Part shown: positions 53,707 through 58,460 of the stretch, one piece after another | How the letters are laid out: every line of letters starts with the position of its first letter | Numbering within the stretch: position 1 is the first letter of the stretch | Source: Aquimarina aggregata | GTDB taxonomy: Bacteria; Bacteroidota; Bacteroidia; Flavobacteriales; Flavobacteriaceae | NCBI RefSeq assembly: GCF_001632745.1 | Contig: NZ_LQRT01000006.1 | Coordinates: 1-64,000 of the forward strand | Reading direction: 5' to 3' | Length of the DNA stretch: 64,000 bases | The notes under the pieces: model-generated | Database searches by the model: none | What the model saw: only the letters and a program-made list of their open reading frames with translations | What the model was told of the DNA's origin: nothing | Program-made: the position numbers and the translations under genes

Positions 53707-54390
53707 ATGTCCAATACGGTATTGAGCCTAAAAGATGCATCAATTTATCAACGCGAAAGCTTAATTCTATCTGATGTTAATGTCGAAGTTAACAAAGGAG
53801 ATTTTGTATATCTGATCGGTAAAACCGGAACCGGAAAAAGTAGCTTTATGAAAACCCTATATGGAGATCTACCTTTGTTAGAAGGTGAAGGCAGTATTGT
53901 GGATTTTGATTTACCAAGTTTACAAGAAAATCAAATCCCTTTTTTGCGTAGGAAATTGGGTATTGTATTTCAAGATTTTAAATTACTTAATGATCGAACT
54001 GTAAAAGACAATCTGTTATTTGTTTTAAAAGCTACCGGTTGGACAGATGAAAAAGCAATGGACAGTAAAATTGATAATGTGTTAGACAAAGTTGGTATGA
54101 AAACAAAAGGTATTAAATATCCTTATCAATTATCTGGTGGCGAGCAGCAACGTATTGCGATTGCAAGAGCATTACTAAATGACCCAGAACTTATACTAGC
54201 AGATGAACCCACTGGAAATCTTGACCCACAAACCTCTGTAGAGGTTATGGAAGTATTACAAGACATTAATAAAAATGGTAATACCATTCTTATGGCTACC
54301 CATGACTACGCTCTTCTTCTTAAATATCCTTCAAAAACTCTAAAATGTGATGGCAACAAAGTTTTTGAGGTAGTACAACGAAAAGCATAA
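53707..54390 (+). CDS. ftsE: ABC transporter ATP-binding protein, FtsE-like
   Basis: 227 residues, the size of FtsE. Walker A is GKTGTGKSS, the Q-loop VFQDFKLL, the signature LSGGEQQRIAIARAL, Walker B LILADEPTGNLD and the switch His in MATHDYALLL. FtsE with the permease FtsX couples ATP use to peptidoglycan hydrolysis at division. No FtsX gene is adjacent; in Flavobacteria it is often elsewhere. Closely related LolD/MacB-type ATPases cannot be fully excluded, but VIDFDLPSLQENQIPFLRRKLGIVFQ-type wording (short pieces here) supports FtsE. Confidence 0.85.
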   Translation: MSNTVLSLKDASIYQRESLILSDVNVEVNKGDFVYLIGKTGTGKSSFMKTLYGDLPLLEGEGSIVDFDLPSLQENQIPFLRRKLGIVFQDFKLLNDRTVKDNLLFVLKATGWTDEKAMDSKIDNVLDKVGMKTKGIKYPYQLSGGEQQRIAIARALLNDPELILADEPTGNLDPQTSVEVMEVLQDINKNGNTILMATHDYALLLKYPSKTLKCDGNKVFEVVQRKA

Positions 54391-54395
54391 ATTTT

Positions 54396-54734
54396 TCAGC
54401 CAATACGCAATCCATTAATTACTTTTTTGGTAGGACTTAACAAGGTGACATCATTGTCTAGACCTACTACTCCAAGTACAAGGCATTCACTCATCATATT
54501 GGCTATTTGTTTTGGTGGAAAATTAACAACTGCAACTACTTGCTTTCCTATCAACTCTTTGGCTGCATACAATTTTGTTATTTGTGCTGATGTTTTTCTT
54601 TTACCAAACTCTCCAAAATCTACAATCATCTTATAAGCTGGCATTTTTGCCTCTTTAAATAATTCTGCACTTAGTATTGTTCCAACCCTCATATCAACCT
54701 TCATAAAGTCTTCCCAGTGTAAATGTGTTTCCAT
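54396..54734 (-). CDS. CsaA-like tRNA-binding domain protein
   Basis: 112 residues from the ATG at 54734 (METHLHWEDFMKVDMRVGTI), the normal size of CsaA. The OB-fold tRNA-binding domain shows FMKVDMRVGTILSAE, AYKMIVDFGEFGKRKTSAQI and VVAVVNFPPKQIANMMSECLVLG. CsaA has been described as a chaperone with export-related activity and as a tRNA binder. A longer reading frame upstream is low-complexity Lys/Tyr/Phe sequence unlike the family and is rejected. It is convergent with the FtsE-like gene with 5 bp between stops. Confidence 0.9.
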   Translation of the reverse strand: METHLHWEDFMKVDMRVGTILSAELFKEAKMPAYKMIVDFGEFGKRKTSAQITKLYAAKELIGKQVVAVVNFPPKQIANMMSECLVLGVVGLDNDVTLLSPTKKVINGLRIG

Positions 54735-54875
54735 TAAATAATCATTTTTTATGTAGTATGATAAAAATAATAAAGTTTCTAATTGATTATATGTTAGTTC
54801 GTACATTTTACGCATAAACAGTACTACATTTGATGGTAAAAAATAAAAAATGTGTTTTTTGTCGAAAATAAATTG

Positions 54876-54936
54876 CTTTTTACCGAATATTTGTTGGTTT
54901 TTACAAGTTACGAAACGGTATTTCTTCTTACATTTG
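54876..54936 (+). promoter_or_regulatory. promoter region of candidate small RNA A
   Basis: The shared block TTTTTACAAGTT (54898-54909) lies 19 bp before an exact -7 box TACATTTG (54929-54936). The region from 54876 aligns without gaps to the one before RNA B (about 28 of 34 positions identical up to the -7 spacer). The -33 TTTG is replaced by the shared block. Confidence 0.6.
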
Positions 54937-54940
54937 TAAT

Positions 54941-55072
54941 ATAAAATTAAGACATTGTTTTTGGCACTTCGCCCCAAAATCGAAAAGCCCAATTGATTGC
55001 CCCAAAATTAAATAAACCCCAAATTTACCCCAAAATATTATCTAAAGTCCCGATCCCCCTCTCGGGACTTTT
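54941..55072 (+). ncRNA. candidate small RNA A with C-rich motifs
   Basis: About 130 nt from the predicted start after the -7 box to an intrinsic terminator. The body carries four C-rich motifs: CGCCCCAAAATCG, GCCCCAAAATTA, CCCCAAATTTA and CCCCAAAATATTA. The terminator stem AAAGTCCCGA / TCGGGACTTT (55044-55071) has a loop TCCCCCTC, another accessible C-run. No conserved ORF fits: the only short frame (TTG start, 13 codons) does not stay in frame with the paralogue at the CCCCAAAA motif. Repeated unpaired C-runs are typical of sRNAs that pair with G-rich target sites. I do not recognise an Rfam family. Confidence 0.6.
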
Positions 55073-55073
55073 C
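55044..55073 (+). terminator. terminator of candidate small RNA A
   Basis: 10-bp stem AAAGTCCCGA / TCGGGACTTT, 8-nt loop TCCCCCTC, then TTC and TTT. Confidence 0.8.
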
Positions 55074-55332
55074 TTTAAAAAAACAGCTCTTCCCTATTAA
55101 GAACACTGCTTTTAGCATAAGTAGATAGCACTTATAAATCTACAAATTAATTCATTTTAGTACTATCAACAGAACTATTCTTTATATGAAATAAAAGTTC
55201 AAAAGCTTTATGAAAATATCATTCAAATCAAGTTAGGTGTTGTAATTAGATTCTCGTTCGAAAAACGAAAGAAAAAAGCTCTCAAAACCCTATAAAACCT
55301 TAATAAATGCACCTTTAATCGTAAAAAAATAA
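55073..55332. other. 260-bp spacer between the two candidate small RNAs
   Basis: AT-rich sequence with no ORF of note. A small inverted repeat CGTTCGAAAAACG is present near 55256. Nothing else is recognised. Confidence 0.3.
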
Positions 55333-55393
55333 CTTTTTAACGATATTTTATTGATTTTTACAAGTTTTACTCAAGAAAGTAATCTTAACTTTG
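55333..55393 (+). promoter_or_regulatory. promoter region of candidate small RNA B
   Basis: It has the same layout as for RNA A: CTTTTTAACGA from 55333, TTTTTACAAGTT at 55355-55366, 19 bp, and the exact -7 box TAACTTTG at 55386-55393. Confidence 0.6.
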
Positions 55394-55397
55394 TAGT

Positions 55398-55564
55398 ATA
55401 AAATTAGATTAATGTTTTTATGGTATTTCGCCCCAAAATTGAAAAACCACAAATATTTGACTTAGCCGAAAAATATTTAACCCAACCAAACAACTAATTT
55501 TACCCCAAATTTACCCCAAAATATCGACAGGCAGTCTGAAGTATATACTTCAGACTGCTTTTTT
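55398..55564 (+). ncRNA. candidate small RNA B, paralogue of RNA A
   Basis: About 165 nt. After a start region like that of RNA A (GTATAAAATTA) come TTTCGCCCCAAAATTG, a 60-nt insertion relative to A, and then the 20-mer CCCCAAATTTACCCCAAAAT followed by AT, identical to RNA A. It ends in its own terminator, unrelated in sequence to that of A. A 17-codon ATG frame exists but is out of register with A. Promoter, 5' motif and 3' C-rich tandem are kept while linker and terminator differ, which is what a duplicated regulatory RNA would show. Confidence 0.6.
55531..55564 (+). terminator. terminator of candidate small RNA B
   Basis: A 28-nt palindrome with arms GCAGTCTGAAG / CTTCAGACTGC (plus central AT pairs), followed by TTTTTT. 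Confidence 0.9.
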
Positions 55565-55811
55565 ATATTAAATTATTACGTTTTGTATTGTCTTTTTTTA
55601 GACACTATATCGAGTAGTACTTGTAAAAGACTTTAAACCCTTACAACAAACTTTATCGGTTCACAAAACCTTATTTTTTTCATGAAAAAACATCGTAACA
55701 TTCATATAACTAAATAATTAAAACCTTGACATGACACATGATATTTATAAATTTAAACTCTTAATTTATAAATCCCAACAACGATAGATTTATTTCTAAT
55801 AATGACACAAT

Positions 55812-55903: not shown

Positions 55904-56557
55904 ATGAAAACAATTAATCTTTTAACAAAATCAGTTTTATTATTATCTATTTTACTTATCACCTATAGTTGTGATAAAAATGAAGAAGATGAGTTAACTC
56001 AAGAAAGTATACAAGAAATAGGTATTTCTGAAGAAGAATGGACAGGAGAAATCGCCAATCCCAGTTCAAAAAATCTAATTTCTTCGGTTAGCGGTAGTAA
56101 TTTTAGACGCTTTTATTTAGATGTAAATTTTGATAGGTTTGCTGACTTAGTAGCAATCAAAACCAGAAGTACTGGTACTAGAAGTACAGAAATACATGTT
56201 TTAGATGGAAAATCTGGGTTTACAAAATTCATCATACAAACTGGCACAGCGCTACACGAAACTGGATCAAACTTTGATTTCTTAGTAGGACTAACACCAA
56301 GAGGAGGGTTAACAATGTACGCAATTAAAAAATCCAATACAGGTAGCAGAAGTACTGAGGTTCATGTAATTTCTGGGAGAAATGGTTATAACAGATTCTT
56401 TAGACAATCAGTTACACCACTACCAGAAACTAACAGATCTTATTCTTTTAGATTAGTTGGTGGACTAGATCAATATTTACACCATATTCAAGTTTTTAGA
56501 AGTGGTGTTAAAAGTGGATTATTAGATGCACGTACGAGTTATAGAACCTTCTTCTAG
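55904..56557 (+). CDS. lipoprotein with two VCBS/FG-GAP-like repeats, function unknown
   Basis: 217 residues. The signal peptide ends in a lipobox (LITYSC, C23), followed by an acidic linker. Two tandem units of about 45-50 residues follow: one with LDVNFDRFADLVAIKTR, RSTEIHVLDGKSGFTKF, and one with LTMYAIKKSNTGSRSTEVHV, SGRNGYNRFF. Each resembles one blade of an FG-GAP/VCBS beta-propeller, but two or three blades are far too few to close a propeller, so the protein may be truncated or may oligomerise. No neighbour hints at a role. Confidence 0.72.
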   Translation: MKTINLLTKSVLLLSILLITYSCDKNEEDELTQESIQEIGISEEEWTGEIANPSSKNLISSVSGSNFRRFYLDVNFDRFADLVAIKTRSTGTRSTEIHVLDGKSGFTKFIIQTGTALHETGSNFDFLVGLTPRGGLTMYAIKKSNTGSRSTEVHVISGRNGYNRFFRQSVTPLPETNRSYSFRLVGGLDQYLHHIQVFRSGVKSGLLDARTSYRTFF

Positions 56558-56660: not shown

Positions 56661-58460
56661 TTATACAATTTTATTTCTCTTACGTTCTACTTCAGTAAGG
56701 AATACTTTACGCAATCTTAAATGATTAGGAGTCACTTCAACGTATTCATCTTTCTGAATATATTCTAAAGCTTCTTCTAGTGAAAATTTAATTGCAGGTA
56801 CAATCTTAGCTTTATCATCTGCTCCAGAAGAACGTACGTTAGATAATTTTTTAGTTTTGGTGATATTCACGGTCATATCATCTCCACGAGAATTCTCTCC
56901 GATAACTTGCCCTTCATAAATATCTTCTCCTGGGTCAACAAAAAACTTACCTCTATCTTGTAGTTTATCTATTGAATATGGAATAGCAGATCCTTTTTCC
57001 ATTGAAACCAAAGAACCATTTATTCTTCCTGGAATGTCTCCTTTTAAAGGCTGATATTCTTTAAAACGGTGAGCCATAATGGCCTCACCTGCAGTAGCAG
57101 TTAAAAGTTGGTTACGTAAACCTATAATCCCTCTAGATGGAATTAAAAATTCGCAAACCATACGATCTCCCTTTGCTTCCATACTTAGCATTTCACCTTT
57201 ACGTAGGGTAACCATTTCCACAGCTTTTCCTGAAACATTTTCAGGTAAATCTATAGTTAACTCTTCTATTGGTTCACATTTTACGCCATCAATCTCTTTT
57301 ATAATTACCTGAGGTTGACCAATCTGCAACTCATAACCTTCTCTTCTCATTGTTTCGATAAGGACAGATAAATGCAATACACCACGACCAAATACTAAAA
57401 ATTTATCAGCACTATTTGTTTCATTAACTCGTAATGCCAAGTTTTTTTCAAGTTCTTTCTCTAGTCTTTCTTTAATATGTCTTGAGGTTACAAATTTCCC
57501 ATCTTTTCCAAAGAAAGGTGAGTCATTAATTGTAAACAACATACTCATTGTTGGCTCATCAATAGCGATAGTTTTTAATCCTTCAGGATTTTCAATATCG
57601 GCTACTGTATCACCTATTTCGAAACCTTCTAGTCCAACTAAGGCACATATATCTCCAGCTTCGACTTTTTCTACTTTCATTCTTCCTAAACCTTCGAAAG
57701 TATGAAGTTCTTTTATTTTTGATTTCTTAATAGATCCATCACGTTTTACCAGAGAAACTTGCATTCCTTCAGTTAATGTACCTCTTTGTAAACGACCGAT
57801 AGCAATACGTCCTGTAAATGAAGAAAAATCTAACGAAGTAATCAACATTTGAGTTGTACCTTCTTCTATTTTTGGAGCAGGAATATGTTCTATTACCATA
57901 TCTAATAATGGCTCGATGTTATCCGTCTCATTTTTCCAGTCTTCACTCATCCAGTTATTCTTTGCAGAACCATATACTGTTGGAAAGTCCAATTGCCATT
58001 CTTCTGCACCTAATTCGAACATAAGGTCAAATACTTTCTCATGAACTTCATCTGGAGTACAGTTTTCTTTATCCACCTTATTAACAACTACACAAGGTTT
58101 TAAACCAAGATCAATAGCTTTTTGTAGTACAAATCGTGTTTGAGGCATAGGTCCCTCGAAAGCATCAACAAGTAATAATACTCCATCTGCCATGTTTAAT
58201 ACACGCTCTACTTCTCCTCCAAAATCGGCGTGACCAGGAGTGTCTATAATATTAATTTTAGTGTCTTTGTATATGACAGAAACATTTTTAGAAGTAATGG
58301 TAATACCTCTTTCACGTTCCAGGTCATTGTTGTCTAAAATTAAATCACCAGTATTTTCATTCTCACGAAATAATTGGCAATGGTACATAATCTTATCTAC
58401 CAACGTAGTTTTACCATGATCTACGTGAGCAATTATCGCAATATTTTTTATAGCTGTCAT
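56661..58460 (-). CDS. typA: ribosome-associated GTPase TypA/BipA
   Basis: 599 residues. Translation-GTPase motifs are all present: [45 protein letters not shown]. Domain II has GRIAIGRLQRG, and the BipA-specific C-terminal part includes SRGIIGLRNQLLTATAGEAIMAHRF. It binds 70S ribosomes and helps 50S assembly and stress adaptation. It has an exact -7 box, TACCTTTG on the minus strand at 58490-58483, 23 bp before the ATG, and a strong terminator. It is a single-gene unit. Confidence 0.98.
   Translation of the reverse strand: MTAIKNIAIIAHVDHGKTTLVDKIMYHCQLFRENENTGDLILDNNDLERERGITITSKNVSVIYKDTKINIIDTPGHADFGGEVERVLNMADGVLLLVDAFEGPMPQTRFVLQKAIDLGLKPCVVVNKVDKENCTPDEVHEKVFDLMFELGAEEWQLDFPTVYGSAKNNWMSEDWKNETDNIEPLLDMVIEHIPAPKIEEGTTQMLITSLDFSSFTGRIAIGRLQRGTLTEGMQVSLVKRDGSIKKSKIKELHTFEGLGRMKVEKVEAGDICALVGLEGFEIGDTVADIENPEGLKTIAIDEPTMSMLFTINDSPFFGKDGKFVTSRHIKERLEKELEKNLALRVNETNSADKFLVFGRGVLHLSVLIETMRREGYELQIGQPQVIIKEIDGVKCEPIEELTIDLPENVSGKAVEMVTLRKGEMLSMEAKGDRMVCEFLIPSRGIIGLRNQLLTATAGEAIMAHRFKEYQPLKGDIPGRINGSLVSMEKGSAIPYSIDKLQDRGKFFVDPGEDIYEGQVIGENSRGDDMTVNITKTKKLSNVRSSGADDKAKIVPAIKFSLEEALEYIQKDEYVEVTPNHLRLRKVFLTEVERKRNKIV

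Follow-up and report, generated by a model that had tools for sequence, protein, structure and literature searches.

Two tandem copies of a predicted multicopy small RNA family with repeated C motifs in Aquimarina aggregata

The closest analogues of the RNA genes considered in this work are LhrC of Listeria and CsrB/RsmZ. The LhrC1-5 RNAs of Listeria monocytogenes stand under the control of the two-component system LisRK, and a surface adhesin is one of their targets (PMC4132741). Little has been learned so far about how Bacteroidota regulate genes after transcription; Aquimarina aggregata belongs to a phylum without Shine-Dalgarno sequences, and no Hfq, CsrA or RRM_1 protein was found in its genome. 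Here, we analysed a stretch of 64,000 nucleotides from A. aggregata (contig NZ_LQRT01000006.1, positions 1 to 64,000; hereafter, the window), in which two tandem loci on the plus strand, RNA A (54940-55077) and RNA B (55397-55565), are recognised by their sequence as two copies of a predicted multicopy small RNA (sRNA) gene family conserved in Aquimarina. Comparison of the copies makes us highly confident that this C-motif family is real and that its C motifs are under selection.

Each RNA is preceded by three direct repeats of the TTTTATCGAT, TTTTACCGAT and TTTTTACAAGTT types, spaced at 20-21 bp, with the last of them lying over the -33 region. By direct reading and alignment, TTTTTACAAGTT was located at 54898-54909 for RNA A and at 55355-55366 for RNA B, an offset of 457 bp, and exactly 19 bp further on each locus has its -7 box, TACATTTG at 54929-54936 and TAACTTTG at 55386-55393. 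A preliminary description of this DNA had reported the shared block, the offset, the 19-bp gap and the boxes, all of which were recovered to the base; it had missed the two further repeats upstream of TTTTTACAAGTT, which span 54853-54886 in RNA A and 55308-55343 in RNA B. The alignment of 16 copies presented below identifies them as TGTTTTTTGTCGA (54853-54865), 21 bp before TTGCTTTTTACCGA (54873-54886, also found by a repeat scan), for RNA A, and as a weak repeat (55308-55322) followed by TTTTTAACGA (55334-55343) for RNA B. The two promoter blocks align with each other. The transcripts themselves, with approximate ends, were predicted from promoter and terminator positions for RNA A and from the fold and transcript prediction for RNA B.

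Both RNAs contain CGCCCCAAAAT (54970-54980 and 55429-55439), and the first CCCCAAAAT motif (54972-54975 and 55431-55434) falls into the loop of a predicted hairpin (54963-54989 and 55421-55449), whose closing pairs covary between the copies, GGC..GCC in RNA A becoming GGT..ACC in RNA B. This hairpin had also been overlooked before, as had the C motif at 55000-55003, which is the second of RNA A; the next two CCCC motifs begin at 55017 and 55028 (motifs 2-4 together, 55000-55031). RNA B has its second and third motifs at 55503-55506 and 55514-55517 (55503-55517), unpaired in the predicted fold. The identical 20-mer CCCCAAATTTACCCCAAAAT, followed by AT in both loci as previously noticed, starts at 55017 in RNA A and at 55503 in RNA B, and the stretch containing it is the sole 20-mer recurrence on the same strand of the window. 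In the whole A. aggregata genome (6.19 Mb, 60 contigs), a 21-mer search with up to 3 mismatches matched the RNA A and RNA B sites alone, against 1 match for the reversed control; three matches to CGCCCCAAAAT with one mismatch were reached in 3 of 100 shuffles, so this single motif could arise by chance; the whole arrangement recurs, with promoter type and neighbours kept, across the genus (see below). Each copy ends in its own intrinsic terminator, and the folds agree with the earlier observation that the stems are unrelated and that RNA A has a C run in the loop: the RNA A terminator (55044-55073) has the loop TCCCCCTC with a fifth C run (55055-55059), while the loop of the RNA B terminator (55531-55565) has none. 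The fold z-scores were -3.24 for RNA A and -6.34 for RNA B, terminators included in both folds.

Related units were read from 35 sources, which yielded 32 distinct predicted transcripts with bodies of 3143 nt in total before the terminators (L143, L145, L062 and the window contributed no new transcript; L146, where the terminator was not found, and L147, L149 and L339, which did not fit the search expression, were omitted). In these bodies, C occurs 117 times in runs of at least four, and G 0 times, whereas letter shuffles gave a mean of 7.4 such C runs and a maximum of 14 in 500. The median is 4 runs per RNA, with at least two in 31/32 and at least three in 27/32; A or G stands just before 113 of the 117 runs, and AA follows most of them. 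The bodies contain little G (9.7%). The mean predicted probability of being unpaired is 0.90 in the C runs, compared with 0.62 elsewhere in the bodies and 0.59 for C outside the runs. Judged by eye, the first motif occurs in two settings, either in a hairpin loop, as in RNA A, RNA B and others, or directly 3' of a different hairpin. The common structure found by RNAalifold is the terminator alone, 6 of its 8 pairs showing compensatory change, and many of the predicted transcripts have a C run in the terminator loop. From these sequences, each unit appears as a free-standing predicted gene: direct repeats come first, then a promoter of the Bacteroidota type and a body that has little structure and usually 3-6 [A/G]CCCCAA motifs, and a terminator closes the unit.

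The pattern TTTTTACAAGTT-N15-25-TAnnTTTGTA, used to scan a collection of genomes, returned 105 stretches, ten of which have at least two CCCCAA or CCCCGA downstream, and all ten belong to Aquimarina. Sixteen copies could be aligned, with a gap of one base at most, over the stretch that begins with the upstream repeats and ends with the -7 box; since 14 of them were found by the pattern containing TTTTTACAAGTT, the invariance of TTTTTACAAGTT and the -7 box in this alignment is partly a matter of selection. A sequence-only model of the promoter block, built from the 16 copies, matched 59 of 66 Aquimarina genomes at E<=0.05 and 42 (counted from the listed rows) at E<1e-6; the A. aggregata genome has only two strong sites. 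Copies found only by this model vary at the 3' end of the third repeat (ACAAGC, ATACAAGTC) and retain the C motifs; the RNA itself was read in 30 strong loci and L377, a subset of the 42 genomes. A lack of motif conservation in relatives, which the preliminary description had named as a refuting outcome, was not what the Aquimarina loci showed. The surroundings are kept as well. In a survey of neighbours, the search expression found the RNA in 18 of 22 loci, representing 16 distinct genomes (those without it were L102, L116, L210 and L213, the last covering the second cluster discussed below). A gene for a TypA-type GTPase follows the RNA in 14/16 genomes, the remaining two loci stopping short of it, and an ABC ATPase gene lies on the opposite flank in 13/16, with other genes there in three.

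The family is apparently new to description. At gathering score, Rfam 15 gave nothing in the window except five tRNAs, the best of the weak matches at the RNA region being HrrF with 31.8 bits against a gathering score of 77, and in the openly licensed literature on sRNAs of Aquimarina, Flavobacterium and Bacteroidota, C-rich and CCCC-motif RNAs included, and on LytTR regulators in connection with sRNAs or direct repeats, no description was recognisable as this family. Taken together, genus-wide conservation, synteny, the conserved promoter, terminator covariation and the lack both of an Rfam family and of a conserved peptide give good support to the original proposal of a duplicated, possibly undescribed sRNA family.

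Weaker matches of the promoter model led to other repeat sites, namely a gene for a protein with the type IX CHU_C domain (PF13585) and a second cluster of RNA-like units. Twenty-four CHU_C orthologues were read from 30 loci, six having been cut or not fitting the expression. CCCC is present in the 70-nt start region of 23 of them, compared with 14/408 background genes, and GGGG in 0/24; by a loose expression, 18/24 have at least two upstream repeat units. With a loose expression we also observed, between promoter and start codon in 23/24 orthologues (L307-L336), an inverted repeat of the ACGGTTTAACCGT type, possibly an operator or an RNA hairpin, which occurs near some other genes as well (L340, L375). 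The second cluster is bordered by a CAAX-protease-type gene on one side and by a Na+/H+ antiporter gene on the other; in A. aggregata it occupies 7922-8621 of L240 (contig 46, minus strand), where two pairs of repeats and two terminators are present. It has C motifs, C-run terminator loops and upstream direct repeats, and its relatives in other Aquimarina (L181, L347, L352, L356, L358, L374) comprise up to three units. Seven segments contain 28 runs of four or more C and 1 of four or more G, one segment being without any such C run; this count is not unbiased, because it was the C motifs that had drawn attention to six of the seven. Separately, TACCCC occurs in the leader of an adhesin-like gene on contig 14 (L226); CCCC is absent from a similar gene in L353, and this lead was dropped.

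As for the regulator, binding sites of LytTR proteins follow the consensus [TA][AC][CA]GTTN[AG][TG] in direct repeats about 21-22 bp apart. The spacing of about 21 bp between the upstream repeats agrees with such promoters, while the consensus letters match poorly. Related repeats (CATTCGTCTA type) were seen by eye, in the relatives shown (29 of 30 H-NOX loci), upstream of an operon in which a LytTR regulator is encoded together with a response regulator, H-NOX, histidine kinases, FIST domains and an HPt-like protein (L241 5765-11577, contig 1, in A. aggregata), a hint that repeats of this kind belong to LytTR-type regulators. The operon itself was rejected as the linked regulator, because its distribution does not follow that of the RNA: the H-NOX gene was absent in 10/42 genomes with strong RNA matches and present in 22/24 others. 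On balance, we consider an activator of the LytTR type slightly more likely than not.

The explanation that in our view best accounts for the whole, with a probability of roughly 0.4, is the following. A LytTR-type response regulator would act at the three direct repeats, the third over the -33 region, and switch on the RNA cluster together with the second cluster and the type IX-secreted CHU_C protein. A single RNA-binding partner, in all probability a protein, would dock at the unpaired C motifs that recur along the RNAs, and the RNAs would serve as decoys drawing this partner off mRNAs that bear the same motif at the start codon, with the CHU_C mRNA as the single conserved candidate for such relief. 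The circuit would resemble CsrB/RsmZ, without CsrA. As C does not pair with C, the CCCC in the co-regulated CHU_C mRNA points to a shared partner. None of the proteins sought was found in the A. aggregata genome, neither CsrA (PF02599; control matches in 3/14) nor Hfq (PF17209; control matches in 5/14) nor RRM_1 (PF00076; control matches in 2/14, one being Bacteroides ihuae), and these results together with the shared motif favour titration of an RNA-binding partner. The mechanism of the predicted RNAs is therefore best stated as titration, with base pairing as the main rival, although we hold the decoy action itself only tentatively, at somewhat less than even odds. A more far-reaching version seems doubtful to us: a Csr-like decoy system invented afresh in Aquimarina, in which one LytTR-type regulator drives at least two separate clusters of C-motif RNAs (four predicted RNA genes in the A. 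aggregata genome) and these titrate a non-CsrA, non-Hfq, non-RRM protein recognising CCCCAAA at the start codons of secreted surface proteins. In this version, the RNAs could descend from duplicated pieces, promoter plus leader, of a gene for such a surface protein.

Several results weigh against the decoy circuit. No candidate for the protein partner of the predicted RNAs is at hand. In 1.79 Mb with 1366 frames (29% of the genome, nine stretches of which had been taken for other reasons), CCCCAAA was seen 4 times at -30..+15, with 3.7 expected and a rank of 8/35 among words of the same composition, so the data show no sign of a wide motif regulon of the CsrA kind; the genome-wide enrichment suggested by a first sample (0.52 Mb, 408 frames, 4 seen, rank 1/35) vanished in the larger one. 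At -100..0, the word ranked 1/35 with 11 occurrences and a word mean of 4.1, but the background was 8.2. A looser repeat pattern gave 27 matches in the A. aggregata genome and 56 for the reversed control, and the repeats are therefore meaningful only in context; among 40 weak promoter-model sites, CCCC occurred within 300 nt at 11 and GGGG at 9. The CHU_C orthologues share ancestry and are not phylogenetically independent, and in 5/24 no repeat was detected by the loose expression. Finally, ppk1 was tried as a target and rejected: it has ACCCCAAAAT before its start in A. aggregata, but of the 29 orthologous leaders that could be read (30 loci fetched), only 2 contain CCCC.

Many of the same data bear on base pairing, in which the sRNAs would use redundant C-rich seeds, CCCCAAA pairing with UUUGGGG-type sites and altering translation or stability; we regard this as possible, with the odds clearly against it. 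LhrC of Listeria sets a precedent (PMC4132741), and TTTGGGG was first of the 35 words at -100..0 (9 occurrences, word mean 3.5), though CCCCAAA was likewise; over the background it was not enriched, either there (9 vs 8.2) or at -30..+15 (2 vs 3.7, rank 6/35), and the suggestion in the preliminary description that the C runs act as seeds on ATTTTGGGG-like sites received no clear support. Nor did it gain any from a duplex scan of RNA A against start windows in the same 29% of the genome: the mean over 1339 windows was -12.3 kcal/mol, within the -11.3 to -13.5 of seven shuffles, and the CHU_C window ranked 1237/1339. Because Bacteroidota mRNAs are without Shine-Dalgarno sequences, according to PMC6847099, the mode of LhrC would have no general target here. 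The start-region tests as a whole favour neither titration nor pairing. A partner made of RNA is conceivable too, the C motifs pairing with the G-rich seed of another sRNA and titrating it, also away from the CHU_C leader. Such a sponge would account both for the repeated motifs and for the same motif in the co-regulated leader; we rate it as unlikely, and there is no candidate, a G-rich partner RNA not having been searched for.

It is hardly credible that the conserved product is a short peptide, MAIRPKI, read from ATG GCA ATT CGC CCC AAA ATA. In the 28 copies with the first motif within the first 60 nt, an in-frame start (ATG, GTG or TTG) precedes it in 15, and RNA B has a 25-codon frame, but the start is ATG in only 5/28 and missing in 13/28, the frames over the motif end at differing places, and 14/32 copies have no ATG frame closed inside the transcript. 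No conserved peptide was seen among these copies, nor does any reading frame persist from copy to copy. We likewise give very little weight to selection on the DNA, be it regulator sites or a repeat element, with an incidental transcript. Conservation is indeed higher in the promoter block (mean column identity 78%) than in the RNA (54%), a difference partly inflated because the copies were chosen by the promoter pattern; against this stand the terminator covariation, the 117:0 strand bias, the unpaired C runs and the retention of the motifs as the structure changes. Titration of an RNA-binding partner remains the explanation we prefer.

In the window, the RNAs are flanked upstream by the gene of an ABC_tran-domain ATPase, which we take to be FtsE-like (53707-54390, on the same strand as the RNAs, and a neighbour in most relatives), and by that of a protein with a tRNA_bind domain, presumably CsaA-like (54396-54815, minus strand, identified by domain match). 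Downstream lies the GTPase gene (56661-58460, minus strand), recognised from sequence and synteny, whose product we take from its sequence to be of the TypA/BipA type, and a single frame of 217 aa (55904-56557) separates it from RNA B.

Outside Aquimarina, we scanned 397 genomes of Flavobacteriaceae, sampled evenly from a larger set and representing 237 genera. Strong matches (E<1e-10) were confined to two Aquimarina, A. aggregata and G042; for G028, also Aquimarina, there was no strong match, most matchless genomes going unlisted. Seventeen other Flavobacteriaceae genomes gave matches between 1e-6 and 1e-4, in which the similarity starts at the repeats and the genes downstream vary. Tandem non-coding units at a common locus were observed in Joostella and Galbibacter (L057 2445-3469; L107 865-1270, minus strand), where the features in common are limited to the TTTTTACAAGTT-N-TAnnTTTG core and to terminators with C-rich loops; these are perhaps a related system with a different RNA sequence. 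A further flavobacterial locus (L381 1500-1850) has direct repeats followed by GCCCCAAAT and by a terminator whose loop is rich in C, possibly a similar RNA outside Aquimarina. In four other Flavobacteriaceae loci (L380, L386, L387, L391), repeats of the same type stand before genes for small CxxC zinc-ribbon-like proteins of one family, paired in 3/4.

A bait-like repeated motif, a strong promoter signature and a co-regulated mRNA together offer a direct handle on the partner, and comparison with described systems places the family more precisely. Rfp18 of Flavobacterium psychrophilum is likewise a genus-conserved sRNA of Flavobacteriaceae with secreted-protein targets; in its description (PMC9723704) it is strongly structured with one pairing stem-loop and is not mentioned as C-rich, which sets it apart by description. 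GibS/FopS of Bacteroides with RbpB (PMC11697453) are also multicopy Bacteroidota RNAs with a single-stranded 5' part and a terminator, but the GibS model, whose gathering score is 115, gave 17.9 bits and did so on the opposite strand, and no RRM_1 protein of the RbpB type was found here. LhrC1-5 are closer, being multicopy and having redundant C-rich motifs in a stem-loop, a single strand and the terminator loop (PMC4132741), and the target class is similar, the conserved candidate here being a type IX-secreted protein. In contrast to LhrC, the motif is CCCCAAA and not CUCCC..UUUU, no sequence relation was seen via Rfam, the regulator is a putative one where LhrC has LisRK, and the Hfq bound by LhrC, whose predicted action is blocking of the Shine-Dalgarno sequence (same source), was not found. 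CsrB/CsrC and RsmY/RsmZ differ in that their motif is GGA, with 22 copies in CsrB against the usual three to six here (PMC7652899), and in that A. aggregata showed neither CsrA nor, over the start regions of 29% of its genome, a broad motif regulon. They are nevertheless alike in being redundant RNAs under a common response regulator, with many motif copies in loops and single strands and with the motif common to the RNAs and to mRNA start regions (same source); if the decoy explanation is true, the Aquimarina RNAs would represent a Csr-type circuit assembled from other parts.
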